Assembly: GCA_902554705.1 (NCBI GenBank)
Contig: CACDPP010000001.1
Span: 62,001 to 126,000 of the forward strand
Direction: 5' to 3'
Source of the DNA: Paracoccaceae bacterium
GTDB taxonomy: Bacteria > Pseudomonadota > Alphaproteobacteria > Rhodobacterales > Rhodobacteraceae
DNA length: 64,000 bases
Part shown: piece by piece, positions 16,435 through 51,966 of the stretch
Layout of the letters: every line of letters starts with the position of its first letter
Position numbering within the stretch: position 1 is the first letter of the stretch
The notes under the pieces: model-generated
Seen by the model: only the letters and a program-made list of their open reading frames with translations
Databases searched by the model: none
Told to the model about the DNA's origin: nothing
Position numbers and translations under genes: made by a program

Positions 16435-16791
16435 ATGCGTTTAATACGCACAGTATTTTTATTGTGCTTGGCAACAATACTTTTCTTAATTTCATTAGCA
16501 AATAGCGAAAAAGTAATGCTTTACTTTTTGCCAGAGCATTTATCGTCACTTTTCGGAATAAATATTTTCTTAAATATTCCTCTATTTTTAGTTTTCTTTT
16601 CTGGAATTTTGATTGGACTTATTATTGGGTTTGTATGGGAATGGCTAAGGGAATATAAATTTCGGGTTGAGGCAAATAATTATCAAAAAAGGCTTTACAG
16701 AGCTGAAACTGAACTTTCAGAACTGCAGGCAAAAGAAAACAAAAACGACGATGTCATCACACTTTTGGAAAAAGTTGAAATGAAAAATTAA
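16435..16791 (+). CDS. LapA-like membrane protein (DUF1049)
   Basis: A 118-residue inner-membrane protein with two hydrophobic segments (about residues 3-22 and 44-68) and a charged, helical, probably coiled-coil cytoplasmic tail (about 70-118). This layout matches LapA/YciS, which in E. coli joins LapB in controlling lipopolysaccharide synthesis through LpxC turnover; whether that holds here is unknown. It follows ihfB by 5 bases and precedes trpF by 4 bases, so it is part of an ihfB-lapA-trpF transcript. The ihfB-lapA adjacency supports the assignment. Confidence 0.8.
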   Translation: MRLIRTVFLLCLATILFLISLANSEKVMLYFLPEHLSSLFGINIFLNIPLFLVFFSGILIGLIIGFVWEWLREYKFRVEANNYQKRLYRAETELSELQAKENKNDDVITLLEKVEMKN

Positions 16792-16795
16792 ATAA

Positions 16796-17434
16796 ATGTG
16801 CTCAAAAGTTCGCGTCAAAATTTGTGGTATAACAAACACAGCAGATATGGATGCTTCCATAAGATATGGTACACATTACGCCGGCTTGATGTTTTTTGAA
16901 AAATCTCCCCGTTTTGTAAATTTAAACCTTGCGAGAAAGCTTAGTTTATATGCAGGCAACCAAATAAAAAAAGTGGCAGTTACCGTTAACTTAGACAATC
17001 AAATTTTAGATGAAATAGTAAAAAAAGTTCCATTGGATTTTATTCAATTACACGGAAAAGAGACACCTAAAAGAGTTCGGGAGATTAAGATTAGATATAA
17101 GCTACCAGTCATCAAAGCCATTGGTGTTGCAGAAGCTGCTGACCTTGATTTGATTTCTCTTTTTTCAGATGTTGCAGATCAATTACTTATAGACGCAAAA
17201 TCCTCTGCCTCGTCTGTTTTACCTGGTGGGAATGGATTAAATTTTGATTGGAAGTTGCTTAAAGACGTCGAGTTTCAGCGCCCCTGGTTGCTTGCTGGAG
17301 GTCTCAATAGCGAGAATGCAGCAGAAGCCATCACAATAACGGGAGCAACGCAACTGGATTTATCGTCTGGAGTTGAAAAGGCTCCTGGGCTTAAGGATGA
17401 TAAAAAAATTTCTTTGTTTATGTCTTCTATATAA
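16796..17434 (+). CDS. trpF: TrpF, phosphoribosylanthranilate isomerase
   Basis: TrpF catalyses the Amadori rearrangement of phosphoribosylanthranilate in tryptophan synthesis. The 212-residue TIM-barrel protein shows [15 protein letters not shown] with the catalytic Cys, DFIQLHGKE, and [15 protein letters not shown] toward the phosphate site; the general acid Asp is in LLIDAKSS. A single-domain TrpF is usual in alphaproteobacteria (in E. coli it is fused to TrpC). trpB follows after 68 bases. Confidence 0.95.
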
Positions 17435-17502
17435 TTTCTAAGACTAAGCACTTTACGTTTGTTTGGCTGCAAGCTAGACCGTTTTTGGGAGTTATTAAGA
17501 AT

Positions 17503-18750
17503 ATGGCAAATGATCTTTTTAATAGTTTTATGAATGGCCCCGATGATAAAGGCCGTTTTGGTAAGTTTGGTGGAAGGTTTGTTTCTGAAACATTGATGCC
17601 GCTAATTCTCGAGCTTGAAAAGCAGTATGAAAAAGCCAAGAATGATAAATCCTTTTGGTCCGAAATGAATGATTTGTGGACAAACTACGTCGGACGACCC
17701 AGCCCACTATACTATGCAGAACGTCTAACAAATCATCTAAGTGGTGCAAAAATTTACTTTAAACGCGATGAGTTAAATCATACCGGAGCACACAAAATTA
17801 ATAACGTGCTTGGCCAGATAATTCTGGCCAGAAGAATGGGTAAAACGCGAATAATTGCAGAAACAGGAGCCGGCCAACATGGAGTAGCTACAGCCACCGT
17901 CTGCGCAAAGTTTGGATTAAAGTGTGTTGTTTATATGGGGTCTCACGATGTCGAAAGACAGGCTCCAAATGTTTTTCGAATGAAACTTCTTGGTGCTGAG
18001 GTGATACCTGTTACGTCGGGCCGAGGCACCTTGAAAGATGCAATGAATGATGCACTGCGTGATTGGGTAACTAACGTTCGTGATACATTTTATTGTATAG
18101 GGACAGTGGCAGGACCTCATCCTTACCCTGCTATGGTAAGAGACTTTCAATCAATAATCGGAAAAGAAACAAAAGAACAGATGAATGACGTTGAAGGTCG
18201 TCTTCCGGATACATTGATAGCCGCCATTGGCGGCGGATCTAATGCAATGGGTCTATTCTTTCCTTTTTTAGACGACAGTTCAGTGAATATAATAGGTGTA
18301 GAAGCAGGCGGAAAAGGCGTAAACGCAAAGATGGAACACTGTGCCTCTCTTACCGGCGGTAGGCCAGGAGTTTTACATGGAAACCGTACCTACTTATTAC
18401 AAAATGAAGATGGCCAGATATTAGAGGGATTTTCTATATCTGCTGGTCTTGATTATCCCGGGATAGGCCCCGAACATGCATGGCTTCACGAAATAGGTCG
18501 GGCAAAATATGTTTCAATTACGGATAAAGAGGCTCTTGAAGCATTTCAACTGAGTTGCACCACTGAAGGCATAATACCAGCCTTAGAACCCAGTCATGCC
18601 CTCGCACACGTTATGAAGATTGCACCTAGTCTTCCTCCAGATCATATAATTTGTATGAATATGTGTGGAAGAGGTGATAAAGATATTTTTACAGTTGCTC
18701 GCCATCTTGGATTTGACATGTCTGGTCCGGAGGGAAGGAATGTGGAGTAA
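17503..18750 (+). CDS. trpB: TrpB, tryptophan synthase beta subunit
   Basis: TrpB condenses indole with serine using PLP. The PLP lysine lies in HTGAHKINN (~residue 88) and the PLP-phosphate loop is GGGSNAMG (~236-243); [15 protein letters not shown] and [14 protein letters not shown] are further signatures. A TTG at 17485 is in frame, but ATG 17503 (MANDLFNSF) gives the usual N-terminus and 415 residues. trpA normally follows trpB; here the next gene is the convergent valS, so trpA must lie elsewhere. Confidence 0.96.
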
Positions 18751-38727: not shown

Positions 38728-38865
38728 CTAATAATCTTTCTCCTAAAGATTGTGTTTAAACAATACACTTTAACTGGATATTTGTCTTTTATTTCTTATT
38801 TAATCTCTTTTTTTAATTGCTAACAATAACAAAGAGTTTATGCTTTTATTTAAAAGGTGGTTTCA

Positions 38866-40062
38866 TTGGGAAAAGAACATACAGAGATACCTAATGATTG
38901 GGATCGATCAGGCCTTCCCGCCTGGAGCTTTTTTAACAACGAAATGTTTGAAGCTGAAAAAGATTTGCTTTTTAGACGCCATTGGCAGCTTATCTGTCAT
39001 AGCAACGATATACCGAACGTAGGAGATTTCATAACCTGGAATTTAATCGGCGAACGTGCACTTGTTATAAGAGGTAAAGATCGAAAAATCAGAGCATTTC
39101 ATAATTTGTGCAAACATCGCGGTTCGCGGGTAATAGCCGATGAGGCCGGCACATGTAAATCAACAATAACTTGTCCATTTCATGGCTGGACTTATAATCT
39201 TGATGGCACTTTAAGGGGTGCCTCACAACCATCATCTCTTCCCAAACTGGACCCGCTTGAATATGGCCTACCCCCCTTAGAAATGGACTTATGGAATGGC
39301 TTTATTTTTGTTAGATTTCAGCCTGGACCACAACCTAAACTTTCAAATATTCTAAAAAAATTTGATAACGAAATTTCACAGTATGAGCTCTCTGATCTTG
39401 AGCCTACTGGAGATGGTTTCTGGACAGAGGAAATTGATGCAAATTGGAAGTGTGTGCGCGATGTTGATAATGAAGGATATCATGTTCCTATGGCACATCC
39501 AGGTCTGCATGATCTATTTGGTCAAAATTATTACGATCAGCCAATAGAGGGAGGGCTATCTCGATCTGTCGGATCATTTAGTTCCGGGAATGGACACTTG
39601 TGGAGCGTCAGAAACTATAAAAAATTATTGCGTGCCAAAGATACTTTGGACGAGGCTCATCAGAGATGTTGGTTATACATTGGCGTTTTTCCAAATCTTG
39701 TGTTTGGCTTATACCCAGATTCAGTAATCTTCTACCAAGAGTATCCAGTAGAAAATGGAAAAACCATACAACGCGGTGGTAATTACAAATATGCAAAAGA
39801 AGATAGGGAGATGAAAATTTCAAGGTATCTAAGCATGAGAATTGATCGATTAACTAGTAAAGAAGACGAACAGCTGATCGAATGGTCTTGGGAAGCAGCA
39901 TTCTCCAGCGCTTACGAAGGTGTCTTTTTATCTGATTTAGAGTATGGGCTGAAAGCATACCATGATACTTTAAGAAAATATTTTCCTGTACTATCGGGCC
40001 CAGAACCAGAGCAGGGTAAACTACTGCAAGCAAACGAAAGACTTCTTGCTAAAAAAGAATAA
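38866..40062 (+). CDS. Rieske non-haem iron oxygenase, alpha subunit
   Basis: About 398 residues. The Rieske [2Fe-2S] ligands are in CKHRG (~83) and CPFHGW (~104), i.e. C-x-H-x18-C-x2-H, and the mononuclear iron site in DVDNEGYHVPMAH (~198-210). Such enzymes hydroxylate aromatics or oxidatively demethylate quaternary amines. The TTG at 38866 has a strong Shine-Dalgarno AAGGTGG (38854-38860) at 5-base spacing, so I prefer it to the GTG at 38857, which lies within that sequence. No ferredoxin reductase partner is adjacent. It is convergent with the GcvT-like gene. Confidence 0.88.
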   Translation: MGKEHTEIPNDWDRSGLPAWSFFNNEMFEAEKDLLFRRHWQLICHSNDIPNVGDFITWNLIGERALVIRGKDRKIRAFHNLCKHRGSRVIADEAGTCKSTITCPFHGWTYNLDGTLRGASQPSSLPKLDPLEYGLPPLEMDLWNGFIFVRFQPGPQPKLSNILKKFDNEISQYELSDLEPTGDGFWTEEIDANWKCVRDVDNEGYHVPMAHPGLHDLFGQNYYDQPIEGGLSRSVGSFSSGNGHLWSVRNYKKLLRAKDTLDEAHQRCWLYIGVFPNLVFGLYPDSVIFYQEYPVENGKTIQRGGNYKYAKEDREMKISRYLSMRIDRLTSKEDEQLIEWSWEAAFSSAYEGVFLSDLEYGLKAYHDTLRKYFPVLSGPEPEQGKLLQANERLLAKKE

Positions 40063-40222
40063 ATATCAATTAGAAAATCATTATTAACTCTATATGAGTT
40101 GAAAAGACGTAATCTTAAAATCTATCAACTCTCATTAGCGTAAAATAGTAAATGTAAAAACTGCTAAATTCGTTCCACACGAGAGAGACTCTACCGCGAA
40201 AACGGATCCCATATATCATGGG

Positions 40223-41440
40223 TCAATAGTTCGCAGGTGGGCAAGCAGATCTCCTTGCCAAATTGATAAATGGTGGCTTTACTATAGAAACTTTTTTCAT
40301 AAGTTTATAATATTGTAACTCTTTCAAAGAGTATATTTCGACCCATAAGTTTTCCATATTGGACTTTGATGAGCCCAGTTTCAACTGAGCAAGAGCTATA
40401 GATTTTTTAGTCATTGGCGACCAAATAGCTGATGTGACAGTGCCGACCTCATCTTTTTTGTTGTAATAAATTATTGATCCCTCAACTGGCTCTTTTCCAT
40501 CTATTTCTAAAGCATAAATCTTGAAAGCTGAACTGTCTTCCAACTTACTATTTAGAATAGCCTTCTTTCCATTAAAAAATCCTTTGTTCAAGTCAACTAA
40601 CCATCCAAGACCTAGATCGTCTGGGCGTCTACATCTATTTGGCCTTATTGCATGATCAGATGAAATAAAATCAATATTAGCCACTATAAAACCTGCTTCT
40701 ATTCTAGCCATATTTAGAGCATTGTATCCAATCGCAGTAAGCCCATGATTTGAACCTGCTTTCCAAACCCTTTCAATAATTTTATTTGCCACATTATTTT
40801 TCATAAATATTTCGTAACCCAAGTCTCCAGTAAAACCAGTTCTAGATATCATAATTGGCGCATTTGATATTTTTGTTTGGAAAAGATGAAACGGTTTCAA
40901 ATTATCAATTCCGTTAACCCCAAGCAGGCGGAGGATTGAGGCCGCAGTAGGCCCCTGAAGAGATATTCCACAAATGTGCTTAGTCTCATCTATAATTTCA
41001 ACATCAAACCCATGTGATGCATCAATCAGCCAAGGAAGATGTTTTTCCTGAGAACACAAGCGGAAATCATTATCCGAAATCCTAAAAAGTGTGCCATCAT
41101 CAATTACAAACCCCTCCTGATCACACCACAATGTGTACTTAACTGTAGCTACATTCTGTTTAGTAACATCTCTCACAGTGAGCTTGTTTAAAAAATCTTC
41201 AGCCTGTGGCCCTACAATTCTATATTTGTTTAAAGGAGTAATATCGAAGACACTACAAGTTGAACGGATAGAAAAATATTCCAACTCCTCATCTGATAAA
41301 ATTGTTGGTGATTTGTATCCGTTCCAATTATACCATTGACCCTCAGTTTCTTGCGCAGCGAAAAAATCGTAAAAAGGAGACCGAAAAAGTGGTTTCGTAA
41401 ATGTTGTGTCCCGATCTTTTTTCTCTTTTGACTGGATCAT
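40223..41440 (-). CDS. GcvT-like aminomethyltransferase family protein
   Basis: A 405-residue protein of the glycine cleavage T/DmdA/dimethylglycine-demethylase fold, which transfers one-carbon units to tetrahydrofolate. CSVFDITPLNKYRIVGP and DFLNKLTVRDV near the N-terminus and EGFVIDDGTLFRIS (~118-131), with the paired Asp matching the GcvT folate-contact site, support this. GYEIFMKN and ARIEAGFIV follow. There is no attached FAD domain, unlike sarcosine or dimethylglycine dehydrogenases; the two FAD proteins upstream could supply that role. Its ATG overlaps the upstream stop by 4 bases. Confidence 0.85.
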   Translation of the reverse strand: MIQSKEKKDRDTTFTKPLFRSPFYDFFAAQETEGQWYNWNGYKSPTILSDEELEYFSIRSTCSVFDITPLNKYRIVGPQAEDFLNKLTVRDVTKQNVATVKYTLWCDQEGFVIDDGTLFRISDNDFRLCSQEKHLPWLIDASHGFDVEIIDETKHICGISLQGPTAASILRLLGVNGIDNLKPFHLFQTKISNAPIMISRTGFTGDLGYEIFMKNNVANKIIERVWKAGSNHGLTAIGYNALNMARIEAGFIVANIDFISSDHAIRPNRCRRPDDLGLGWLVDLNKGFFNGKKAILNSKLEDSSAFKIYALEIDGKEPVEGSIIYYNKKDEVGTVTSAIWSPMTKKSIALAQLKLGSSKSNMENLWVEIYSLKELQYYKLMKKVSIVKPPFINLARRSACPPANY

Positions 41441-42999
41441 TTAATACTCTCTCGCAAAATCTTTTTTGCTGCGTTTAAACCTGACAAGCCAAAAAGATTA
41501 CCTCCTGGATGGGTGCCTGCTCCACAAATAAAAAGGCCATCAATTGGAGTGGAATAATCTGACACATCAAATGCCGGCCTTAGTGAATAAAGACTATCTA
41601 TTTGCAATTCACTATGGTGCCAATGGCCCCCAGCAACGAAGTATTTTTTTTCAGTTTCATGAGGAAGTAGAAGACTTTTGAATAAAATACCCTTTTTAAT
41701 TTCAGGAGCCCATTTTTGAATTGTTGAAATTACCTTATTCATCAAAACTTCCTTTGAATTTTTCCAGCCACCTTTAACGGAATATGGCGTATTCTGAATG
41801 CAAATGGAGGCCATAACTGCTCCATTAAGGGAGGAATCAGAAGAAATTTTACTGAAATACATTTCAAAATTAGGATCTGAAGGAAGTTCATTATACTTAA
41901 GAGAGTTAAAGTTACTCTCTACCGCTTCTAAGGAGGGGGCATAAACGTATCGGTAGTGCGCATCTAAGTTTTGAGAACTGTGTAACTTTGGAAGTTCCTC
42001 CAAAATGATGTTGAGTTTACTGGTATTTCCTGAGTACCTGAGAGCTTGGATCCGTCTTGTTAGATCAGTCTCCAGGTTTTGGGGACCGACTAAATCAAGA
42101 AAAGTGTTTACTGGACTGATAGAAGATACAATGGTTTTCGCAGAATATTCCACTCCATTTTCTAGCTTTACACCAGTCACTACGGAGTCCGTTATAATAA
42201 GTGAACTGACTTTCCCTTTAAAGACGAAATCTACTCCATTTTCCTCAGCTGACTTAAACAAAGCATTGATGAAACTGGTGACTCCACCTTGAATAGACAA
42301 TGATTTCCCTTGATAAGAATCTTTCATCTGTGAAAGTTTATATAATAGACCTAAATATGACGTTGGCGATCTAGGCCCTAGTTTTATTCCTAATGTAGAA
42401 TCAAAAGAAATTAGTCCTTTTAGAGAAGATGTTTCAAGTTCTTCTTCCACTAAATCAGCAATGCACATAGTAATCATTCGTAAAAGTTCTTGAAATTGTT
42501 CTTTACCTTGCAGCCTCAATTTTGCGGCAGTCAAAAATAAACTGGCTTTACTCCCAAATGTTTTTTGATTTCTCCCTATAGGAATTTGCGATGCCAATCT
42601 TTGGAAGAGATGGCTCTGGTTAAAAAATTTCTCTCTTAATTCTTTCCATCGTTTGAATTCGTTCTCCGTGATACCTTCTATGCTTTTCCCAAAGTTACTG
42701 CCGAATACAACGTTTTCATTTTCTATGCTCAAGCCTACGGTCTTTAAACCATCTTCATTAAACAAAAGTTCATATTTGCTGAGCCCCAAATCTTGCACTA
42801 CATCTTTTGAAATACCAATTGCATTACTAGCCAATTCTGGAGCTTGAAAACCTTTAAATAAAACTTCACTCCTGGCCATTCCACCGTAGGTTTCGCCGGC
42901 TTCAAGTAAAAGGACTCTCCTTCCAGAAGCTGCCAACTTTGAAGCTACGATGAGGCCGTTGTGTCCAGCCCCAATCACAATTACGTCATAAGACTTCAT
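41437..42999 (-). CDS. FAD-dependent oxidoreductase, PYROXD2/phytoene-desaturase-like (copy A)
   Basis: A 520-residue flavoprotein. The dinucleotide motif VIVIGAGHNGLIVASKLAAS is at residues ~5-24, with VLLLEAGETYGGMARSE following, and the C-terminal FAD motif is LFICGAGTHPGGNLFGLSG (~490-508). The HxGG closing motif is typical of PYROXD2-like amine-oxidase-fold proteins. It is similar in layout to the gene directly upstream, pointing to tandem duplication. It overlaps that gene by 14 bases and the GcvT-like gene by 4, so all three are translationally coupled. The substrate is unknown, probably an amine. Confidence 0.85.
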   Translation of the reverse strand: MKSYDVIVIGAGHNGLIVASKLAASGRRVLLLEAGETYGGMARSEVLFKGFQAPELASNAIGISKDVVQDLGLSKYELLFNEDGLKTVGLSIENENVVFGSNFGKSIEGITENEFKRWKELREKFFNQSHLFQRLASQIPIGRNQKTFGSKASLFLTAAKLRLQGKEQFQELLRMITMCIADLVEEELETSSLKGLISFDSTLGIKLGPRSPTSYLGLLYKLSQMKDSYQGKSLSIQGGVTSFINALFKSAEENGVDFVFKGKVSSLIITDSVVTGVKLENGVEYSAKTIVSSISPVNTFLDLVGPQNLETDLTRRIQALRYSGNTSKLNIILEELPKLHSSQNLDAHYRYVYAPSLEAVESNFNSLKYNELPSDPNFEMYFSKISSDSSLNGAVMASICIQNTPYSVKGGWKNSKEVLMNKVISTIQKWAPEIKKGILFKSLLLPHETEKKYFVAGGHWHHSELQIDSLYSLRPAFDVSDYSTPIDGLFICGAGTHPGGNLFGLSGLNAAKKILRESIK

Positions 43000-44617
43000 A
43001 AGCGTCCCTAATATCGGAGTCAGGCAAATTAAGATCCTTCAGTATTTCAACGGCCGCATTACGGCCAGGAGCACCCATTACACCACCGCCAGGGTGGGTA
43101 GAGGAACCACACATATATAGACCTTTAATGGGACTTCTATATTGAGCATAACCGGGAATTGGTCTGTTAAACAAAAGCTGGTCAAAAGTTAACTCGCCCT
43201 GGAAAATGTTTCCCTCCGTCAAACCAACCTCCTCTTCAAGCTCTTTGGGAGTTCTTACTTCCATATGTAGAATTTTATCTTTGAAACCCGGCGAATAGTC
43301 TGCAATCTGTTGTATTACAGTCTCTCCAAATGCGTCCTTATTCTCTTTAGTCCAATTTTTGCCACCTACTTTTGGAGGGCAATATTGAACAAAGCAACTC
43401 ATGAAATGCTTTCCAGGAGGAGCCATGGTAGGATCTGTTAAAGTAGGTATCATCATATCTAAAAATGGATCCCGGGACCAAGTTCCCATTTTCCAATCGT
43501 CGTAAGCTCTCTCCATCCTTTCAATACTGTCCGTGAAATGAATATCACCCTTTAAACATGGATTATTATCTGAGACACCTGGAAATTTTGGCATACTATC
43601 AAGAGCGATATTAACCTTTCCTGATGAGCCACGTATCTTAAAATTATTCACTTTTTTTATAAAGTTTGGTGGCAGATGTTCGGGATCAGTCAATTTTAAA
43701 AATGTACGCTTTACGTCAGCATTTGAAACAACATTTCTTGCCAAATACTCGTCTCCATTTTTTAATATGACACCTCTAACTCGAGCACCTCTAATATCGA
43801 CTTTCTCTACCTCAGAATTGTTGAGCAACGTACCACCCATTGCTCTAAAGGATGAAGTCAGAGCTTTAGAAATAGCTCCCATTCCTCCGCGCGCATAGCC
43901 CCACGCCCCGATCGAACCATCAACTTCGCCCATATAGTGATGTAATAGGACGTAGGCGGTACCTGGTGACATTGGCCCCAAAGCTGTTCCGATGATACCG
44001 GACACTGCAAGAGAAGCCTTTATCACTTCATTTTCAAAATATTCATCTAAAAAGTCTGAAATTGACATAGTCCAAAAACGAATAGTATCAGCCAATTCAC
44101 TAGCAGTTAAGTCATTTACTTTACGCAAAAGGTAAAGCATTTCTGAGAGATCTCTAAATTTAAAGCTCGCCGGATCTGGTGCAGTTCTCATTAAAAGCGG
44201 TTGAATAAATCTGCACTGCTTAAGAATATCCCTAGAGTATCTAGAATAAGACTCGCTGTCTTTTACACTAAACCGCTCTAACTCTCGCTTTTTTGCCTGG
44301 TAGTTTCTGTAGGATGCAAGATAATCACCATCTCTGGTGAATACCGTTCCGCCCTCTATGGCAACAATCTGTAGTCCATGTTTTGGCAGCTCCAAGTCTC
44401 GCATGATTTCAGGTCTAAAAAGACTGCAAACATAGGAACAGTTTGAATATAAAATTCCAGGATGGAGTTCACGACTAACCGCAGCACCTCCTATCCAGTC
44501 ATTTTTTTCGAGAACTAAAACGTTTAACCCTGCTTTTTGAAGGTAACACGCATTGACCAAGCCATTATGACCAGAACCGATCACTATTACATCAAAGTTT
44601 TTTTCCACGGACTGCAC
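42986..44617 (-). CDS. FAD-dependent oxidoreductase, PYROXD2/phytoene-desaturase-like (copy B)
   Basis: A 543-residue paralogue of the next gene in the operon. The FAD motif VIVIGSGHNGLVNACYLQKA (~10-29) is followed by VLVLEKNDWIGGAAVSRE, and the C-terminal motif is LYMCGSSTHPGGGVMGAPG (~506-524). Translation starts at a GTG (44617). It is the first gene of a three-gene minus-strand operon and faces the transporter operon across a 322-base divergent spacer. The two copies probably form a pair acting on related intermediates or as a heteromer (inference). Carotenoid desaturation is less likely because no carotenoid genes are present. Confidence 0.85.
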   Translation of the reverse strand: MQSVEKNFDVIVIGSGHNGLVNACYLQKAGLNVLVLEKNDWIGGAAVSRELHPGILYSNCSYVCSLFRPEIMRDLELPKHGLQIVAIEGGTVFTRDGDYLASYRNYQAKKRELERFSVKDSESYSRYSRDILKQCRFIQPLLMRTAPDPASFKFRDLSEMLYLLRKVNDLTASELADTIRFWTMSISDFLDEYFENEVIKASLAVSGIIGTALGPMSPGTAYVLLHHYMGEVDGSIGAWGYARGGMGAISKALTSSFRAMGGTLLNNSEVEKVDIRGARVRGVILKNGDEYLARNVVSNADVKRTFLKLTDPEHLPPNFIKKVNNFKIRGSSGKVNIALDSMPKFPGVSDNNPCLKGDIHFTDSIERMERAYDDWKMGTWSRDPFLDMMIPTLTDPTMAPPGKHFMSCFVQYCPPKVGGKNWTKENKDAFGETVIQQIADYSPGFKDKILHMEVRTPKELEEEVGLTEGNIFQGELTFDQLLFNRPIPGYAQYRSPIKGLYMCGSSTHPGGGVMGAPGRNAAVEILKDLNLPDSDIRDAYEVL

Positions 44618-44743
44618 TACCTAAGTTGAAGAGTTATTTCTCATCACACCTTAACATTACAAAATGGCGAGTCAAAAAATTGATTATTATTTTATTGTAA
44701 TAATTGAAATTTTTTACTTCCAGATAAACTTAAGTTCCCATTC

Positions 44744-44773
44744 TTGAAACTTGTTATAGAAAGCAAGTATATT
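44744..44773 (+). promoter_or_regulatory. Candidate promoter for ABC importer operon
   Basis: TTGAAA (44744-44749), an 18-base spacer and TATATT (44768-44773) fit a sigma-70-type promoter, leaving a leader of about 160 bases before the first permease. Confidence 0.45.
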
Positions 44774-44851
44774 TTTTCGGAACAACATGATGCTTATACT
44801 TCTTTGGAAAAGACTCCGTCACCGAATTATAGCTATTTTTCTTGACGAACC

Positions 44852-44877
44852 AAAGCCATTAAGCATTATGGCTTTTT
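44852..44877 (+). promoter_or_regulatory. Hairpin with T-tract in importer leader (attenuator-like)
   Basis: AAAGCCAT (44852-44859) and ATGGCTTT (44868-44875) form an 8-bp stem with an 8-base loop, followed by two more T residues and then AA. Only three pairs are G-C, so it would be a weak terminator; if real it may act as an attenuator before the permease gene. Confidence 0.35.
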
Positions 44878-44927
44878 AATGACAAATAATACTGACAGTA
44901 ATTTAGTACGCTAATTGAGAATTAAAA

Positions 44928-44942
44928 CGGGGATAAAAAATT
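44928..44942 (+). promoter_or_regulatory. Shine-Dalgarno before ATT start of first permease
   Basis: CGGGGA (44928-44933) ends 6 bases before an in-frame ATT (44940-44942). Upstream, the frame is closed by TAA at 44934-44936. No ATG, GTG or TTG lies in frame between this stop and codon 21, so ATT is the likely initiation codon. Confidence 0.5.
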
Positions 44943-45806
44943 TTTAGCTTAACATTTAAAGACGAAACAAAAAAAGGCTGGAAACTTCTATCTACTCCAT
45001 TGGCGTTCAGCATCATTCTACTGGCAGCTCCACTGACAATGATGTTCCTATTGAGCTTTTGGACACAAGATTATTTAGTTCTAGACAAAACTTTCACTTT
45101 AAATAATTACATTGAAGCTTTTACACAGCCTGTTTACCAATTACTATTTTCGAGATCTCTGTACATTTCGCTAACGGTAACTTTTTTTACCGTTTTGCTG
45201 GCCTACCCAATGGCTTATTTTATTTCTTTTTATGGCGGCAACAGAAAAGCACTTTGGTTATTCTTAATTACGATACCATTTTGGACCAGCTACCTCCTTA
45301 GAATGTTTTTATGGAAGGTCATTCTGGGATATAATGGCGTTCTAAATTCATTTCTGTTGTGGTTGGAAATGATAAGTGAACCTCTTACTTTTATCTTATA
45401 TAATTCTAATGCCGTAATCATTGCGCTTACTCATGGTTGGGCGCCTTTTGCTATTTTACCAATTTTTGTTTCCCTAGAAAAAATTGATAGATCTTTACTC
45501 GAAGCAAGTAGAGATCTAGGAGATGGGCCAATTAAACAATTTTTCAGGGTAATCCTGCCGTTATCAATGCCAGGTGTGGTTGGCGCCGCCCTGATAATTT
45601 TCATCCCCACAGTCGGAGATTACATTACACCAAAATTAGTTGGCGGCACTGATGGTTTAATGATCGCAAATATGATCCAAGTTCAATTCTCAAAAGCAAA
45701 TAACGCTCCTCTCGCTGCGGCTTTATCTGTTTCCTCATTAGTAATTGTAGCATTTATTTCAATTGTTTTTGTTCTCATCAACAAAAAATACCTAAGGAGA
45801 TACTAA
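44940..45806 (+). CDS. ABC transporter permease, PotB-like (spermidine/putrescine or opine type)
   Basis: An inner-membrane permease of about 288 residues if started at ATT 44940. Starting at the first standard codon (TTG 45000) would cut the N-terminus within the first membrane segment, and that TTG has no Shine-Dalgarno; the frame is open upstream and encodes KDETKKGWKLLSTP, a normal cytoplasmic lead-in. The inner-membrane signature for ATPase contact is EASRDLGDGPIKQFFRVILP (~residues 182-201). Six membrane segments are predicted. The next permease starts 1 base after its stop. An assembly error in the A/T run at 44935-44945 is an alternative reason for the missing start. Confidence 0.85.
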   Translation: MFSLTFKDETKKGWKLLSTPLAFSIILLAAPLTMMFLLSFWTQDYLVLDKTFTLNNYIEAFTQPVYQLLFSRSLYISLTVTFFTVLLAYPMAYFISFYGGNRKALWLFLITIPFWTSYLLRMFLWKVILGYNGVLNSFLLWLEMISEPLTFILYNSNAVIIALTHGWAPFAILPIFVSLEKIDRSLLEASRDLGDGPIKQFFRVILPLSMPGVVGAALIIFIPTVGDYITPKLVGGTDGLMIANMIQVQFSKANNAPLAAALSVSSLVIVAFISIVFVLINKKYLRRY

Positions 45807-45807
45807 G

Positions 45808-46605
45808 ATGGTCCGTCCGGGTAAATTCCTCAAAGTCTTTGCGATTACATATTTAATATTTTTGTATGCGCCGGCATTACTGCTTCCAATATTTTCATTT
45901 AATTCAAGCCAAATTATTGCTTTTCCATTATCGGGTTTTACCACCGGTTGGTTCAAAGCCTTATTGTATCAAGAGACTTTACATGAAGCTCTAAAAAATT
46001 CACTTATTGTGGCCGCGTCATCAAGTATTTTTGCTACAATATTGGGCACACTAGCTTCTCGCTCGTCAAGCAGGTACAATTTTCCCGGCAAACAGTTTTC
46101 GCTAACCTTCATTCTGGCACCACTAGTTTTGCCTGAAATAATAGTCGGCGTATCACTTTTGATCGTACTGATTCAGCTCGGATTGCCACTTAATCTGTGG
46201 AGCGTCGTTTTAGGCCATACACTTCTAATAATGCCGTTCTCAATACTGATCATGAATTCTGCCTTTAACAATCTTGATATTAGTTTAGAGGAAGCATCTC
46301 TCGATCTTGGCGAGACGCCAATTGGAACCTTCCGCCGCGTAATCCTACCGCTAGTATATCCCGGTATAATGGCTAGCTTATTACTCGGTTTTACGTTGTC
46401 TTTGGACGAATTTATAATAGCTTTTTTCTTAACTGGAACAGAGACAACATTACCAGTTTACATATGGTCATTGTTTCGATTTCCGAAACAATTACCCACA
46501 ACAATGGCACTAGGTACAATTCTAATCTTGGTTTCATTAATTTTGCTGTCTCTCAGTGAATATTTCCGAAGAAGAGCAGCAAAAAATCAAACGTCTGTAT
46601 TATAA
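45808..46605 (+). CDS. ABC transporter permease, PotC-like
   Basis: The second permease of the importer, 265 residues with six predicted membrane segments. The coupling loop is EEASLDLGETPIGTFRRVIL (~171-190), followed by GFTLSLDEFIIAFFLTG, a PotC-like stretch. It pairs with the upstream PotB-like permease as a heterodimer. The stop-start spacing of one base to the previous gene and 22 bases to the ATPase gene indicate a single operon. Confidence 0.9.
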   Translation: MVRPGKFLKVFAITYLIFLYAPALLLPIFSFNSSQIIAFPLSGFTTGWFKALLYQETLHEALKNSLIVAASSSIFATILGTLASRSSSRYNFPGKQFSLTFILAPLVLPEIIVGVSLLIVLIQLGLPLNLWSVVLGHTLLIMPFSILIMNSAFNNLDISLEEASLDLGETPIGTFRRVILPLVYPGIMASLLLGFTLSLDEFIIAFFLTGTETTLPVYIWSLFRFPKQLPTTMALGTILILVSLILLSLSEYFRRRAAKNQTSVL

Positions 46606-46627
46606 AATTTAAGGGAATTTTTAAACG

Positions 46628-47704
46628 ATGGGTAAGTTAGTTCAGGTAAAAAATGCCTTTAAAAGTTTTGGTGACGTTAATGCTGTGAATGGTGTTTCTT
46701 TAGACATCGAGGAAGGCCAGTTCTATTCACTTTTAGGTCCTTCTGGCTGTGGTAAAACTACCCTATTACGACTAATTGCTGGCTTCGAAAAACCAACTTC
46801 TGGACAAGTCTTTATTGATAATACTTCGATGGAAGGTATTGAGCCCAATTTACGACCAACAAATATGGTTTTCCAAAATTACGCTATTTTCCCGCATTTA
46901 AATGTAGAGGAAAATGTGGCTTACGGATTGCGAAACAAACGTGAAAATAGAACCAAACAAAACAAACTTGTTGATGAAGCACTTGAACTAGTAGGATTAT
47001 CTGGCCTCAATAAACGTTCTGCGAATGCCCTTTCCGGCGGCCAAAAGCAGCGTGTTGCTCTAGCGCGTGCACTAATATTGAAACCAAAAGTCCTTTTATT
47101 AGATGAGCCTCTCTCAGCTTTAGATAAGAAGCTAAGAGAACAGATGCAATCAGAGCTAAGACACCTACAGCGAGCCGTTGGGATTACTTTTATACTTGTA
47201 ACCCATGACCAATACGAAGCGCTTACAATGAGTGACAGAGTAGCCGTTATGTTCGATGGAAAGGTCGCACAAGAAGCATCACCTAGAGATCTTTACGAAC
47301 TTCCAACCTCACAAAAAGTTGCTTCTTTCATTGGAGAAATGACTTTTATTGAAGGTGAAATTATAGGTGAAAACCAAAAGTTAAAGATTCAGTCTGAAAT
47401 TTTTGGACAAATAACTATAGATAAATCTCGAGTTTTTGGACAATCATCTAAAAGGATAGTCCTTGGAATACGGCCCGAGAAAATAGCTATAGTTCCAAGA
47501 ACTTCTCGATCAAAAAATTTAGTTTCTGGAAAAATAATTGACGTATCATACTTCGGCGAAACAACTAATTATAAAGTCGCATGCGGTGCTACTGAAACTT
47601 TGACAATCTCGTCGCAAAATTCTGTTGGGCAGCTTAGTTATTCCGTTGGTGAAGAAATCCAGTTAAAGGCTGATTTGGATAATATAATAGCTTTTTCAAC
47701 TTGA
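46628..47704 (+). CDS. ABC transporter ATP-binding protein, PotA-like
   Basis: A 358-residue importer ATPase. Walker A is LGPSGCGKTTLLRLIAGFEK (~residues 36-55), the signature LSGGQKQRVALARALIL (~137), Walker B VLLLDEPLSALD (~158) and the switch His in VTHDQYEALTMSDR. A C-terminal TOBE domain follows from about residue 275, with VLGIRPEKIAIVP. This is the polyamine/ferric/opine subfamily. A strong terminator lies directly after its stop. Confidence 0.93.
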   Translation: MGKLVQVKNAFKSFGDVNAVNGVSLDIEEGQFYSLLGPSGCGKTTLLRLIAGFEKPTSGQVFIDNTSMEGIEPNLRPTNMVFQNYAIFPHLNVEENVAYGLRNKRENRTKQNKLVDEALELVGLSGLNKRSANALSGGQKQRVALARALILKPKVLLLDEPLSALDKKLREQMQSELRHLQRAVGITFILVTHDQYEALTMSDRVAVMFDGKVAQEASPRDLYELPTSQKVASFIGEMTFIEGEIIGENQKLKIQSEIFGQITIDKSRVFGQSSKRIVLGIRPEKIAIVPRTSRSKNLVSGKIIDVSYFGETTNYKVACGATETLTISSQNSVGQLSYSVGEEIQLKADLDNIIAFST

Positions 47705-47705
47705 T

Positions 47706-47737
47706 CTCAGAGGCGAAATTCGCCTCTGAGGTTTTTT
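47706..47737 (+). terminator. Strong Rho-independent terminator of importer operon
   Basis: CTCAGAGGCG (47706-47715) and CGCCTCTGAG (47721-47730) form a perfect 10-bp stem with loop AAATT, followed by G and six T residues. It ends the permease-permease-ATPase operon. The reverse side has no T-tract, so it serves mainly the plus strand. Confidence 0.9.
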
Positions 47738-47749
47738 ATTTAGCCTTGA

Positions 47750-48802
47750 TTAGAAGCCGCTTTTAATGAGTTCCCATTCTTTAATCATTCTTTCCCTGAG
47801 TGCTGGATCAGAAGGTTTTTGGAATAAAGAACCCTCAGTATAACTTGCTAATGGCTCCCATCCATTCTCTTTACCAACAGTTGCCATAACTTCTTTATTC
47901 GTATGTCCATAACCCCACTCAGTAACGATATATTCTGCAGAGGCGTCAGAAAGCCAAGCATCAAGAAAATCGTAGGCTTTTTGTTCCGAGCCAGGTGCAT
48001 CTTTCATCATTGTATAGCCACACACCCAAGTTGAAGAGCCTTCTTTGGTGTCTCGTTTGAAGACAGTCTCTGGTGCGTCATCTTCCCAACTGAGAGTAAA
48101 TGCAACCTCATTCCACGTCCATTCTAAAAGAATTTCTCCACTCTTCATAAGCGCGGCACCTTCAGCACCGTCAGCATGATATTGTCGAACGTTTTTGTGC
48201 ACTTTTCTTAAAAAATCTGAAGCATTTTTAAAATCTTCGTCCGTAGATTTTGTCCAATCCATCACTCCTACAGCCAGATAACCTAGGGCATAGGCGTCGT
48301 CTACGTTGTCAATAATTGACACACGCCCTTGAAATTTTGGATCAGCGAAAACGTACAAAGAGCTGGCTTCTTCTGCGGATACTTCTTCAGCATTATATGT
48401 TAATGCTGTTGCGCCCCAATCTATCGGAAGTGCCCATTGAACACCGTCAACTTGAAAGCCCTCCATTCCAGCAAATCCAGGGTCGACCTTATCAAAGTTT
48501 GACAGTCTAGAAGTATCAATAGGTTTTATAATTCCTGCGTTTCGCCATTTTACGACTGATTGAGAACAGGGGTGTCCCAAGTCAGCCCTAAACCCTGCGC
48601 GTACTTTTTGAAAAGCTTCTTCCTCATCTGAAAAGAAAGAATAAGTCGGCGCATCACCGTATTTTTTCATATAATCTTGGAAGAACATTTCGTCTTCATA
48701 TCCACCCCAGTCGAACACTACCAGTTCACTGTCTGCTGCGAATGCAGGAGCACCGAATGAAAATGCAGTTGCAGCCACCAGGTAACTTAAAGTTTTTCTC
48801 AT
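47750..48802 (-). CDS. ABC transporter substrate-binding protein (PotD/PotF-like)
   Basis: A periplasmic solute-binding protein of about 350 residues. The signal peptide ends in AFSFGAPAFA|ADSE. The mature start, ELVVFDWGGYEDEMFF, is typical of the PotD/PotF/opine group. I prefer ATG 48802, which has an AAGGAA at proper distance, over the TTG three codons earlier. It is convergent with the ATPase gene and so is not in the same operon as its permeases; separate transcription allows more binding protein per transporter. Binding residues cannot be assigned to a ligand by eye. Confidence 0.9.
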   Translation of the reverse strand: MRKTLSYLVAATAFSFGAPAFAADSELVVFDWGGYEDEMFFQDYMKKYGDAPTYSFFSDEEEAFQKVRAGFRADLGHPCSQSVVKWRNAGIIKPIDTSRLSNFDKVDPGFAGMEGFQVDGVQWALPIDWGATALTYNAEEVSAEEASSLYVFADPKFQGRVSIIDNVDDAYALGYLAVGVMDWTKSTDEDFKNASDFLRKVHKNVRQYHADGAEGAALMKSGEILLEWTWNEVAFTLSWEDDAPETVFKRDTKEGSSTWVCGYTMMKDAPGSEQKAYDFLDAWLSDASAEYIVTEWGYGHTNKEVMATVGKENGWEPLASYTEGSLFQKPSDPALRERMIKEWELIKSGF

Positions 48803-49010
48803 TTTTCCCAATTCCTTTTTAATTTCATAGTCTAAGCTTCATACAATACTTTAATTTGTACTGAGTCTAGAAAAATAGGAAGACCTAAATTTAGAAACAC
48901 CTTCATTGTGGCTGAATTTTTAAAATTTTCTCTGACTTCATTAGGTTGCATAGTACGAAACTGCACTGTAGCATCTTTCAAAATTCAAAAGCTAGAAGTG
49001 GATAAAGCCC

Positions 49011-50294
49011 TTGAGCGCACCTCTTCCAACTAACCCCGATATTATTATAATTGGTGCTGGTTCATCAGGTCTCTCAGCAGCAAAAAAGCTTCAGGAACTA
49101 GGAACCTCGTATGTAGTCTTAGAGGCTTCAGATCGTATTGGAGGTCGAGCTTACACCGAGAGTAATATTTTTGGCCAACCTGTTGATCATGGTTGTTCTT
49201 GGATATCAGGCTCCAATGATAACATCTTCTCAAATTTGGGTAAAATTAATAACTTTACACTCGTAGACCACTCTAACCCAAAAATCGAAATGTTTGAGAG
49301 AGACGGTACAAAATCTCCAAAAGAAGCAGTAAAAGAATACAATAAATCTGAATTTAAAATAAAAGAAATTCTTCGTGACACCGGCCGCCGGGGAATTGAT
49401 ATACCAGCATCAAGAGTAATTCCAAAAGTTCCATATGGTGAATGTTTTCAGAATTGGGAGGGCGCATTAAACTACGCTGTTGATGTAGATCAAATATCGA
49501 CAGCAGAATATTGGAATACAAAAGATACCCAACCAAGTTTTATTGTAAAAGAGGGTCTAGGTAATTTAGTAGCTACATTAAACAACAACTTTCCTATCGC
49601 TTTCAACACAAGTGTACTTAAAATAGATTATTCAGGTTCAGGCGTAAAAGTTATTACGTCCAATGGAACAATTTTGGCTAAGGCTTGTATTTGTACCGTT
49701 TCAATTGGTGTTTTAAAGTCCGAAAAAATAAAGTTTACACCCAAACTTCCCAATAAAACGCAAAAGGCACTTGATGGCATTCAAATGGGGCTCCTTGTAA
49801 AAATCCCTCTTCTGTTCGACGGAAGCAGATTAGGATTTACTGAAAATAGTTTCGTGCAATATGACATTGCACCTGAAAATATTGGAAGTGGCTGCTATTT
49901 CTTAGCATGGCCAACTGGACACGATTATATAGTTGCGTTTATCGGTGGGCGATTTGCCTGGAACTTATCGAAGCAAGGCGAAGACGAAATTGTGGAATAC
50001 GCCCTTTCTAAACTCGAAACTTTGGCTGGATACGATATCCGCAAGCATTTTCTAAAAGGCTTTGCTTTCGATTGGGCAAATAACCCACTTTCTAAAGGAT
50101 CCTATTCTGCAGTTAAACCCGGCTGTTACGGCGCACGAGAGATGCTAAGTGAACCTGTTGCAGACAAGTTAATATTTGCAGGTGAGGCAACCGCAGGTGA
50201 TTTAGCAGGCCTAGTAAATGGCGCATATGAGAGTGGTAAAATGGCAGCTACTCGAATATCCAATATCATCAAACTTAAAAATAAATCTCTGTAA
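49011..50294 (+). CDS. Flavin monoamine oxidase-like protein
   Basis: A 427-residue FAD amine oxidase of the MAO/polyamine oxidase type. The dinucleotide-binding motif IIIIGAGSSGLSAAKKLQEL (~residues 11-30) is followed by YVVLEASDRIGGRAYTE, and the C-terminal FAD motif is LIFAGEATAGDLAGLVNGAY (~392-411). The Cys that links FAD covalently in human MAO is not present in that motif. Translation starts at TTG 49011. The setting beside a polyamine-type importer suggests oxidation of an imported amine to an aldehyde plus ammonia or methylamine (inference). Confidence 0.87.
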   Translation: MSAPLPTNPDIIIIGAGSSGLSAAKKLQELGTSYVVLEASDRIGGRAYTESNIFGQPVDHGCSWISGSNDNIFSNLGKINNFTLVDHSNPKIEMFERDGTKSPKEAVKEYNKSEFKIKEILRDTGRRGIDIPASRVIPKVPYGECFQNWEGALNYAVDVDQISTAEYWNTKDTQPSFIVKEGLGNLVATLNNNFPIAFNTSVLKIDYSGSGVKVITSNGTILAKACICTVSIGVLKSEKIKFTPKLPNKTQKALDGIQMGLLVKIPLLFDGSRLGFTENSFVQYDIAPENIGSGCYFLAWPTGHDYIVAFIGGRFAWNLSKQGEDEIVEYALSKLETLAGYDIRKHFLKGFAFDWANNPLSKGSYSAVKPGCYGAREMLSEPVADKLIFAGEATAGDLAGLVNGAYESGKMAATRISNIIKLKNKSL

Positions 50295-50403
50295 TTTAGA
50301 TTTAAATTCTAGAAATTTTCGTCACATCTTTACCAAATAAATAACTTCGTTGCTTCCTAAATAATTTGCCAACTAATTCCATAAGCATTTTCCATAAAAA
50401 ACT

Positions 50404-51618
50404 CTAAGATTTAATATTAAGATTTTTTCCCAGTTGCTTCAGGTAACCAGCATGAAACGCTTTAATGCCCCACTCCATGTTAGATAAAGGCCCTGGAACA
50501 TAGTGATCGGAATTGACCCCTTTTTGATTAAGTCCAATAATGCGTTCATCATCTTGTGATGTACAATGCCATAACCATGTAAGATCTTCTAAGTTATAAT
50601 CTAGGCCCTCTTGGGCGTCCTCTCTCACCATCCAGATTACCTCAATATCTGTAAGTTGAAGAGATCTTGGTATAAAGCGATAGCCGATCACATGATCGGA
50701 ATAAGATAAAAAGTTATTCAAAATACCAATTTGTAGATCAGTCGTACCACCATCAAAATCTTTAAGTTTACCTAATAGTGGCGCTAATTTTTTTCCAGAC
50801 TTACTGCCAGTTTGATAGCCTTGAAAAAGGGGATACCGGGAGAAATAAAAATCCATTTCTACATCTTTTGACCCAAGAGTATTTATTTGAAGCTCATCAC
50901 CCGATAGCCCCACTTCTATACTTTTCTTAAGCATACAATTTTTCAATTCGATATTAGCGCTTGATGGATCTTTTAAGCTGTGCGACTTAGAGTACTCTAA
51001 ATGAGCAGGCGCACAATGATAGCACTCCATATAATTCTCCAAAGCTAATTTCCAGTTAGCAGCAACTGGGTAATTTTTGCTATGCACAATTTTTAAATTC
51101 TCAAATTCAAAAGGTTCAACCAATGTTCCTAGTTGAAGTAAACCTTCATCAATATTGGGTGGATCGTCTGATATACAGACAAAAATTAGACCGTGAAAAA
51201 TTCGAAGATTAACTTTTTTTAATGAGTGTTCAGCTTTTTCAAAGCTGTCCCCCATTTCACGCGCACCACGTAGATTTCCATTAAGTTCATAAGTCCATGC
51301 ATGGTAGGGGCAAGCAAATACACGAGTATTTCCACTCTTTTCTAGACAAACTCTTGAACCTCTATGACGACAGACATTCAATAACGCATTTACATCTTTA
51401 TTTTTATCACGGGCTACTATTACGGACTCATAACCATAATCGAATAAGAAAAAGTCTCCGACATTGGGAATTTGATTGATATGCCCAACCCAAATCCAAC
51501 TGTGGTTCCAATAGTGCTCGATATCCATCTTATATAACGCCTCAGACGTATAAAATTGGCGCGGGAGACTATGAGATAACTGGTAATTCGAAATTAGTTC
51601 CTTTAATATCTTTTCCAC
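50404..51618 (-). CDS. Rieske oxygenase alpha subunit, GbcA/quaternary-amine demethylase-like
   Basis: A 404-residue oxygenase. The Rieske ligands are CRHRG (~86) and CPYHAW (~107), C-x-H-x17-C-x2-H. The iron site region is LENYMECYHCAPAHLEY (~190-206), close to the pattern of glycine betaine, choline and carnitine oxygenases, and unlike the other Rieske gene at 38.9 kb. The GTG start has a GGAG 8 bases upstream. No reductase gene lies next to it. It ends 109 bases from the amine oxidase, tail to tail. A possible -35 TTGACA lies upstream on the minus strand at 51775-51780. Confidence 0.87.
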   Translation of the reverse strand: MEKILKELISNYQLSHSLPRQFYTSEALYKMDIEHYWNHSWIWVGHINQIPNVGDFFLFDYGYESVIVARDKNKDVNALLNVCRHRGSRVCLEKSGNTRVFACPYHAWTYELNGNLRGAREMGDSFEKAEHSLKKVNLRIFHGLIFVCISDDPPNIDEGLLQLGTLVEPFEFENLKIVHSKNYPVAANWKLALENYMECYHCAPAHLEYSKSHSLKDPSSANIELKNCMLKKSIEVGLSGDELQINTLGSKDVEMDFYFSRYPLFQGYQTGSKSGKKLAPLLGKLKDFDGGTTDLQIGILNNFLSYSDHVIGYRFIPRSLQLTDIEVIWMVREDAQEGLDYNLEDLTWLWHCTSQDDERIIGLNQKGVNSDHYVPGPLSNMEWGIKAFHAGYLKQLGKNLNIKS

Positions 51619-51892: not shown

Positions 51893-51966
51893 TGGAGCGG
51901 GTAGCGGGAATCGAACCCGCACCTTAAGCTTGGAAGGCTCTTATGATACCATTTCACCATACCCGC
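51893..51966 (-). tRNA. tRNA-Gly (anticodon TCC)
   Basis: Reading the minus strand from 51966, acceptor arms GCGGGTA/TACCCGC pair fully, the T arm is GCGGG-TTCGATT-CCCGC, and the anticodon loop is CTTCCAA with anticodon TCC. The CCA end is encoded (51893-51895). Confidence 0.93.

Follow-up and report, generated by a model that had tools for sequence, protein, structure and literature searches.

We describe here a cluster of ten genes (positions 38857 to 51618) from a Paracoccaceae bacterium (assembly GCA_902554705.1, contig CACDPP010000001.1), lying in a stretch of 64,000 nucleotides that was analyzed as a whole and is called the window below. The cluster probably serves the breakdown of a quaternary or N-methylated (poly)amine, a pathway for which we infer the reactions, the order of steps and the class of substrate. 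Directly observed were the presence and conserved linkage of the genes, the sequence signatures at the Rieske sites and a single genome in which a fused protein resembling dimethylglycine dehydrogenase (DMGDH) stands at the place of a trio formed by two flavoproteins, PyrA1 and PyrA2, and a separate GcvT-fold protein.

In the proposed pathway the cationic substrate would be taken up by an ATP-binding cassette (ABC) importer of PotABCD type. The Rieske oxygenase RO1, or RO2 in some lineages, would then hydroxylate an N-methyl group, and the methyl would be lost as formaldehyde. PyrA1 and PyrA2 would oxidize the remaining N-methyl groups to the iminium or methylene state and the GcvT protein would transfer the carbon to tetrahydrofolate, so that the trio would act as a split functional analogue of DMGDH and sarcosine oxidase. 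The freed primary amine would finally be transaminated by a class III aminotransferase, AT3, whose gene is found linked in the majority of relatives beyond the genus and not linked here; in some lineages a monoamine oxidase (MAO)-like enzyme may aid or replace AT3, and the aldehyde would then be oxidized. An earlier reading of this DNA from its letters (the sequence-only reading) had seen in the set the uptake, demethylation, one-carbon salvage and deamination of one substrate. The first three agree with the conserved linked set, and the deamination by the MAO-like enzyme was at best weakly supported.

Conservation of the cluster

The family survey comprised 120 genomes of the same family, the source genome included (E-value cut-offs: GcvT 1e-60, PyrA1 1e-120, RO1 1e-90, RO2 1e-80 and MAO 1e-70, or lower). 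The GcvT gene was found in 15 of the 120 genomes and PyrA1 in exactly those 15, which left 14 PyrA1-positive relatives and 105 negatives. In all 14 family loci fetched for GcvT, the genes of PyrA1, a second flavoprotein and GcvT stood side by side, and importer genes of PotABCD type, of at least two kinds, lay in the fetched stretch (14/14). RO1 occurred in 19 of the 120 genomes, namely in 10 of the 14 PyrA1-positive relatives versus 8 of the 105 negatives (p = 3e-7 by one-sided Fisher test, without correction for phylogeny). Where both genes occur, in 11 genomes including the source genome, RO1 lay no more than 13 kb from PyrA1 in 10 cases and at 43 kb in one. RO2 was noticed in 3/14 PyrA1-positive relatives versus 2/105 others (p = 0.01), and the MAO-like gene in 2/14 versus 2/105 (p = 0.07). 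Because they are rarely present, we treat both as accessory, lineage-specific genes; the sequence-only reading had counted them as regular parts of the set, which is not borne out for the MAO-like gene and is true for RO2 only sometimes.

A scan of named genomes with a PyrA1 alignment gave at least 584 confirmed relatives, of which the best 80 were kept: 5 loci of the same genus, 2 of SAR116 and 73 others (L040-L112), 51 of the latter being full length. The best 80 came from the window's genus and SAR116, followed for the most part by Rhizobiales (Mesorhizobium, Shinella, Rhizobium, Phyllobacterium, Roseibium). We scored synteny with tblastn at identity cut-offs of our own choice; open reading frame (ORF) lists from GC-rich relatives include antisense artefacts. 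The genes for PyrA1, PyrA2, GcvT and a TetR regulator were each present in 51/51 full-length loci, which were chosen for carrying PyrA1, are in many cases closely related and do not represent 51 independent events. Of the 51 loci, 49 had the binding protein gene, 48 each permease, the ATPase and AT3, 37 a methyltransferase and 27 RO1, and none had RO2 or MAO; trio, AT3 and importer occurred together in 47. The five same-genus loci carried RO1 (5), RO2 (4), the MAO-like gene (4), AT3 (3) and the window's type of importer (4), and a TetR gene in no case. SAR116 was represented by a 3-kb fragment and one full-length locus, the latter having trio, importer and RO1, with no match to AT3 or TetR.

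A class-wide draw of 385 genomes gave 18 with PyrA1 (E at most 1e-150) and 6 with RO1 (E at most 1e-100), 4 of them shared, the source genome included. Of the 17 other PyrA1 loci 13 were fetched; 12 show PyrA1, the second flavoprotein and GcvT, and in L146 the sequence runs out behind the second flavoprotein. AT3 was present in 4 of these 13, a GntE-type aminotransferase in 2 and some Rieske gene in 5 (L134, L135, L138, L139, L145). The genes of the cluster are not a chance gathering. The co-occurrence across Rhodobacterales and SAR116 genomes, proposed as a check in the sequence-only reading, was found for trio, importer and RO1, and it extends to Rhizobiales. The trio genes are arranged in one and the same order in Rhodobacteraceae, SAR116 and Rhizobiales.

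Rieske oxygenases

RO1 (38857..40062, plus strand), a Rieske non-heme iron oxygenase, and RO2 (50404..51618, minus strand) match the Rieske and Ring_hydroxyl_A families, and both have the Rieske Cys/His motif and the His pair of the mononuclear iron. The best solved match of RO1 is CntA (carnitine monooxygenase). RO2 is nearest to 3n0q and 3vca/4qup (full length, 226 bits) and then to CntA; 3vca/4qup we take to be the stachydrine demethylase Stc2. Neither protein reaches the cut-off (670 bits) of the GbcA model NF058607, with 123 bits for RO1 and 299 for RO2. The AlphaFold model of RO1 was of no use (mean predicted local distance difference test score, pLDDT, 43).

According to PMC7948474, Rieske oxygenases of group V act on quaternary amines, CntA has a bridging Glu205, and Tyr or Phe at position 203 marks clade Va and Asn clade Vb. 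The residue numbering of CntA was taken from this paper, and its transfer to RO1 and RO2 was done by us. Alignment with CntA placed the bridging Glu in both proteins (NEGYH in RO1, MECYH in RO2), which supports the quaternary-amine demethylation suggested in the sequence-only reading, and at the position of CntA 203 RO2 has Tyr and RO1 has Asp (RO2 NYMECYHC-PAH, RO1 DVDNEGYH; aligned references CntA NYMECYHC, 3vca/4qup NNRECYHC). Among 71 Rieske proteins from the fetched loci, labeled by best query as RO1 (53), RO2 (10) or a further type, RX (8), the motif DVDNEGYH was found in 51 of 53 RO1-labeled proteins, the two exceptions being distant (28 and 32% identity), and the bridging Glu with Tyr (one Phe) at the 203 position in 10/10 RO2- and 8/8 RX-labeled ones. 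Counts of the RO1 motif and of agmatinase come from a homology search without composition filter. A third Rieske oxygenase of the source genome (G000:C60; L128:1087-2256) carries ENYCESYH, with the bridging Glu and Tyr at the position of CntA 203.

The trio of two flavoproteins and a GcvT protein

The genes for GcvT (40223..41440), PyrA2 (41437..42999) and PyrA1 (42986..44617) lie on the minus strand and overlap by 4 base pairs (bp; GcvT/PyrA2) and 14 bp (PyrA2/PyrA1), therefore the arrangement is operon-like, as the sequence-only reading had it. The folate-binding GcvT protein matches the Pfam models GCV_T (182 bits) and GCV_T_C (34.5 bits), both above cut-off. Among solved structures its best match is trimethylamine N-oxide (TMAO) demethylase, in the GcvT domain (9q59), followed by glycine-cleavage T-proteins and then by sarcosine oxidase and dimethylglycine oxidase. 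It stays below the NCBIfam cut-offs for gcvT (190/300 bits) and TMAO demethylase (240/1100), as well as for the dimethylsulfoniopropionate (DMSP) demethylase DmdA (97/410), which was thereby ruled out as its identity.

Both flavoproteins belong to the Amino_oxidase/DAO families of flavin adenine dinucleotide (FAD) oxidoreductases. For PyrA1 the nearest named model is the beta-carotene ketolase CrtO, at 311/1000 bits far under cut-off; PYROXD2, the other name that we and the sequence-only reading attach to PyrA1 and PyrA2, is a tentative label. PyrA1 is the best-conserved gene of the trio, and PyrA2 evolves faster (about 24-43% identity outside the genus). The AlphaFold model of PyrA1 (mean pLDDT 76) resembles carotenoid desaturases first, then nicotine oxidoreductase, putrescine oxidase and monoamine oxidase.

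The clearest hint at the function of the trio comes from a single locus, L123, in which RO1, an RX Rieske gene, the importer and TetR adjoin a protein of 840 amino acids (aa), 43% identical to the DAO-GcvT fusion of L024. This DMGDH-like protein occupies the place of the trio, no PyrA1 was found in the L123 genome, and the trio would therefore seem to do a DMGDH-like job, with a function equal to that of the fusion. The genome of L126/L024 carries both the trio and the DAO-GcvT fusion. From the human side, PMC8109053 reports that PYROXD2 variants govern plasma N6-methyl- and dimethyllysine levels and explain about half of the variance of plasma N6-methyllysine; for PyrA1 and PyrA2 this association is a lead and not a test.

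Upstream of PyrA1 and divergent to the trio stands, in the 37 named loci mentioned above (L042, L112 and other Rhizobiales), the S-adenosylmethionine-dependent methyltransferase gene. The source genome has two long SoxA-type matches (under the model cut-off), four DMGDH-like matches of more than 390 aa and several other GcvT-fold matches, spread over contigs C9, C1 (just upstream of the window), C12, C31, C59, C7, C2, C42 and C14.

Importer and loci without the trio

Every component type of a PotABCD importer is present: permease 1 (45000..45806, PotB/PotH type) and permease 2 (45808..46605, PotC/PotI type), both BPD_transp_1, the ATPase (46628..47704, PotA type, ABC_tran and TOBE_2), all on the plus strand, and the periplasmic binding protein (47750..48811, minus strand, PotD/PotF type, SBP_bac_8). 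The permease genes are 1 bp apart and the ATPase gene follows after 22 bp. The ATPase scored 354.4 bits against the potA subfamily model TIGR01187 (cut-off 355.6) and the binding protein 79/582 bits against the PotD model; its alignment with PotF and PotD indicated no ligand. With its counterparts in two RO1 loci, L119 and L124, it shares 79% and 83% identity.

In these two loci and in L147, RO1, importer, binding protein and AT3 are accompanied by an agmatinase, a glutamine-synthetase-like ligase and a DAO-type oxidase. The agmatinase was recognized by hidden Markov model in L119, and the copies of L124 and L147 are 69% and 63% identical to it. No PyrA1 was found in the genomes of L119, L124 and L147, that of L119 being 74% complete. 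A place in polyamine degradation, a finding that the sequence-only reading had said would tell against it, is thus indicated in part, for the importer and RO1 in these trio-less loci.

The same-genus locus L037, whose PyrA1 is 98% identical, carries another importer of PotABCD type, its binding protein 44% identical to the L020 type. In its MAO slot lies an old yellow enzyme-type flavoprotein of 681 aa, and a similar Oxidored_FMN plus Pyr_redox protein adjoins the RX Rieske gene of L138. In operons of what we call Type A the last gene, immediately after those of the importer, encodes a cupin (L020:1618-2529; L021 about 16726-17658; L123 from 4480). The L020 cupin matches PF16867 (DMSP lyase), and those of L021 and L123 are homologous to it.

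Amine oxidase, aminotransferase and regulator

The MAO-like flavin amine oxidase (49011..50294, plus strand, Amino_oxidase) has LSD1/LSD2 and polyamine oxidase as nearest solved relatives, and besides the four same-genus loci, two more loci of the family carry its gene, at about 51%. The sequence-only reading had made it the deaminating enzyme; in relatives deamination is more often the job of an aminotransferase, the usual linked partner being AT3, which is absent from this cluster. The nearest AT3 homologue of the source genome, which is incomplete, is 57% identical and lies on another contig; as a copy of 70-71% identity stands next to the cluster in three of the five same-genus loci, this homologue may be a paralogue. 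AT3 scores above the cut-off of NF005447, a class III family related to omega-aminotransferases, and it matches general class III models; lysine 6-aminotransferase was not among the families listed for it. The linked TetR regulator, represented by that of L023, is BetI-like (115 bits, cut-off 118) and has a TetR_C_6 domain. In L134 an aldehyde dehydrogenase gene stands between GcvT and AT3, its best models being PuuC and betaine-aldehyde dehydrogenase, both below cut-off.

Genome and surroundings of the cluster

The source assembly is AT-rich, of 1.85 Mb in 79 contigs and 69% complete. Its nearest named relatives among the matches listed are marine Rhodobacteraceae single-cell or metagenome assemblies such as AG-343-P20 and AG-359-N23 (PyrA1 97-99% identical). 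All ten ORFs of the cluster were found at the same coordinates as in the sequence-only reading, and Pfam confirmed the broad families. The ATPase and binding protein genes are convergent, and most of a terminator-like hairpin (47703..47733, plus strand, 14 pairs followed by a T run) falls within their 45-bp gap; terminator-like sites in the region numbered 8 versus 10.6 expected by chance, and this one has the longest stem. The cluster is flanked by DUF218 on one side and by genes for tRNA-Gly (window 51893-51966), SRAP and LepA on the other. These flanks vary within the genus: L033 has two extra genes (L033:439-2765) between tRNA-Gly (L033:98-171) and RO2. In L036 genes that resemble, by eye, another transporter lie beyond RO1. 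Recent acquisition was considered and gave no signal by base composition, the GC content of the cluster matching that of its surroundings.

In the PyrA1 tree the window's genus stands beside SAR116 inside a mainly Rhizobiales clade (Shimodaira-Hasegawa-like approximate likelihood ratio test support 98), apart from two further Rhodobacteraceae clades. In the RO1 tree the window's RO1 stands beside other Rhodobacteraceae (L023, L125; support 99). Both are quick trees of thinned sets with some long branches; from their discordant placements the cluster looks mosaic in origin.

Discussion

Two kinds of pointers meet in this cluster. The importer family, the gene company of L119, L124 and L147, the aldehyde dehydrogenase of L134 and the nearness of the MAO-like enzyme to LSD1/LSD2 and polyamine oxidase point to polyamines, and the Rieske signatures, the relatives of the GcvT protein, the BetI-like regulator and the fused protein of L123 point to quaternary or methylated amines. 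Taken together they favor a methylated (poly)amine, and no single result names the compound. An N-methylated diamine or polyamine, or N6-methylated lysine, is our favored but unproven substrate, placed before a simple betaine because the three trio-less RO1 loci carry agmatinase and glutamine-synthetase-like genes. For trimethyllysine, one of the candidates, no matching pathway was seen among the literature titles found in open-licence PubMed Central (PMC). Glycine betaine was rejected as the default substrate, as neither Rieske protein reaches the GbcA model and the source genome has other candidates for the late steps (SoxA-type, DMGDH-like). More tentatively, and with more doubt than trust on our side, the trio may be a new split folate-coupled N-demethylase with a CrtO/PYROXD2 flavin part, and RO1 a third, aspartate-using class of quaternary-amine recognition.

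One alternative, which we judge unlikely, is that two modules share the locus: importer, RO1 and AT3 would serve the catabolism of polyamines or guanidino-amines, with RO1 performing a C-N bond-cleaving hydroxylation of the polyamine, and the trio would demethylate a different compound. It would suit the agmatinase, ligase and DAO-type oxidase found where the trio is missing, the 79-83% identity of the window's binding protein to those of L119 and L124, the Asp of RO1 in place of Tyr or Asn, and the different importer next to a nearly identical PyrA1 in L037. However, RO1 is far commoner in trio genomes (10/14 versus 8/105), trio, AT3 and importer keep together in 47 of the 51 named loci, and in L123 it is a DMGDH-like fusion that replaces the trio beside RO1. 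Quite unlikely in our view is an omega-amino-acid betaine (gamma-butyrobetaine, beta-alanine betaine) or a carnitine-like compound, demethylated to the amino acid and then transaminated. CntA as the nearest solved relative of RO1, the CntA tyrosine of RO2, the BetI-like regulator and the family of AT3 would agree with it, but known betaine importers are of ProU or ChoX type and that of the cluster is of PotABCD type, both Rieske proteins remain under the GbcA cut-off, and agmatinase and ligase genes accompany the importer in other loci.

An identity or overlap with the operon for homarine (N-methylpicolinate), reportedly homABCDER of Rhodobacterales and SAR116, we consider improbable: the taxa overlap, but homarine is an aromatic ring whose N-methyl is said to leave at the N-methylglutamate stage, and the GcvT trio and an aminotransferase would then be unneeded. 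PMC13390433 refers to the homarine paper and to the part that N-methylglutamate dehydrogenase plays in it. A chance neighborhood of unrelated genes is hardly conceivable; it would fit the inconstancy of RO2 and the MAO-like gene, but for trio, importer and RO1 it is contradicted by a linkage kept across Rhodobacteraceae, SAR116 and Rhizobiales.

Against the methylated-amine pathway weigh the following points. RO1 is missing from 4 of the 14 family genomes with the trio, from 14 of the 18 class-wide PyrA1-positive genomes (E at most 1e-100; some carry other Rieske genes) and from 24 of the 51 full-length named loci. In 12 of these 24 loci AT3 lies at most 250 bases from the edge of the stretch and RO1 is possibly out of view, and in 9 the stretch runs on for 1.4 kb or more past AT3 and still shows no RO1. 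The farthest trio loci, L142 and L144, show no importer, Rieske or aminotransferase gene matching our queries. No Rieske reductase gene lies in the cluster, and the incomplete source genome showed one NAD_binding_1 protein. The nearest named relatives of PyrA1, by sequence and by fold, are carotenoid enzymes, and we infer its role as amine oxidase from its neighbors. RO1 and the importer, which stand in trio-less loci beside agmatinase and glutamine-synthetase-like genes, may serve ordinary polyamines.

In the open-licence PMC literature no description of this gene combination was recognized (the homarine operon paper lies outside this comparison), and the available part of the lag-phase paper PMC11306105 holds nothing about the cluster genes; the gene set is widely conserved and apparently unstudied. 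If the proposed pathway is true, it would form a widespread route, in marine Rhodobacteraceae, SAR116 and Rhizobiales, from an unrecognized pool of methylated nitrogen to one-carbon units and usable nitrogen. With the same proviso, what PYROXD2-type flavoproteins do, which in human blood are linked to methyl-lysine levels, could be tested directly in an easily grown bacterium such as Mesorhizobium or Shinella. The split N-demethylase, if real, would assign amine demethylation to the CrtO/PYROXD2 family, which fits the effect of the human PYROXD2 variants (PMC8109053).

Comparison with known systems

With polyamine systems (PotABCD/PotFGHI; Puu, Spu) the cluster shares the importer family and, in the loci of relatives, agmatinase, glutamine-synthetase-like and PuuC-like genes; we know of no Rieske oxygenase, PYROXD2-like pair or GcvT in the classical polyamine pathways. 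CntA (group Va) has the bridging Glu in common with RO1 and RO2, and RO2 repeats its tyrosine within NYMECYHC-PAH, whereas RO1 has Asp for Tyr203, RO2 is overall closer to 3n0q and 3vca/4qup, and the cluster has no reductase gene. Stc2 (group Vb, presumably 3vca/4qup) matches RO2 over the full length with 226 bits, but RO2 has Tyr and not Asn at the amine-recognition position.

Among TMAO demethylase and DMGDH-type fusions, the GcvT domain of the former is nearest to the GcvT protein and a fusion of the latter type stands beside RO1 in L123; the cluster proteins differ in being unfused, with flavoproteins of another family. In DMGDH and sarcosine oxidase the flavoprotein and the GcvT domain are likewise joined or tightly associated, unlike the separate proteins here. 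Glycine betaine is catabolized by the Rieske oxygenase GbcAB and then by demethylation of dimethylglycine and sarcosine with GcvT-fold domains, and the cluster would follow the same logic, with Rieske demethylation of a quaternary amine before flavin oxidation and one-carbon transfer to folate. It differs from that pathway in its CrtO/PYROXD2-type instead of DAO-type flavoproteins, its separate GcvT protein, its PotABCD-type importer, the aminotransferase linked in most relatives, and Rieske proteins far below the GbcA cut-off.

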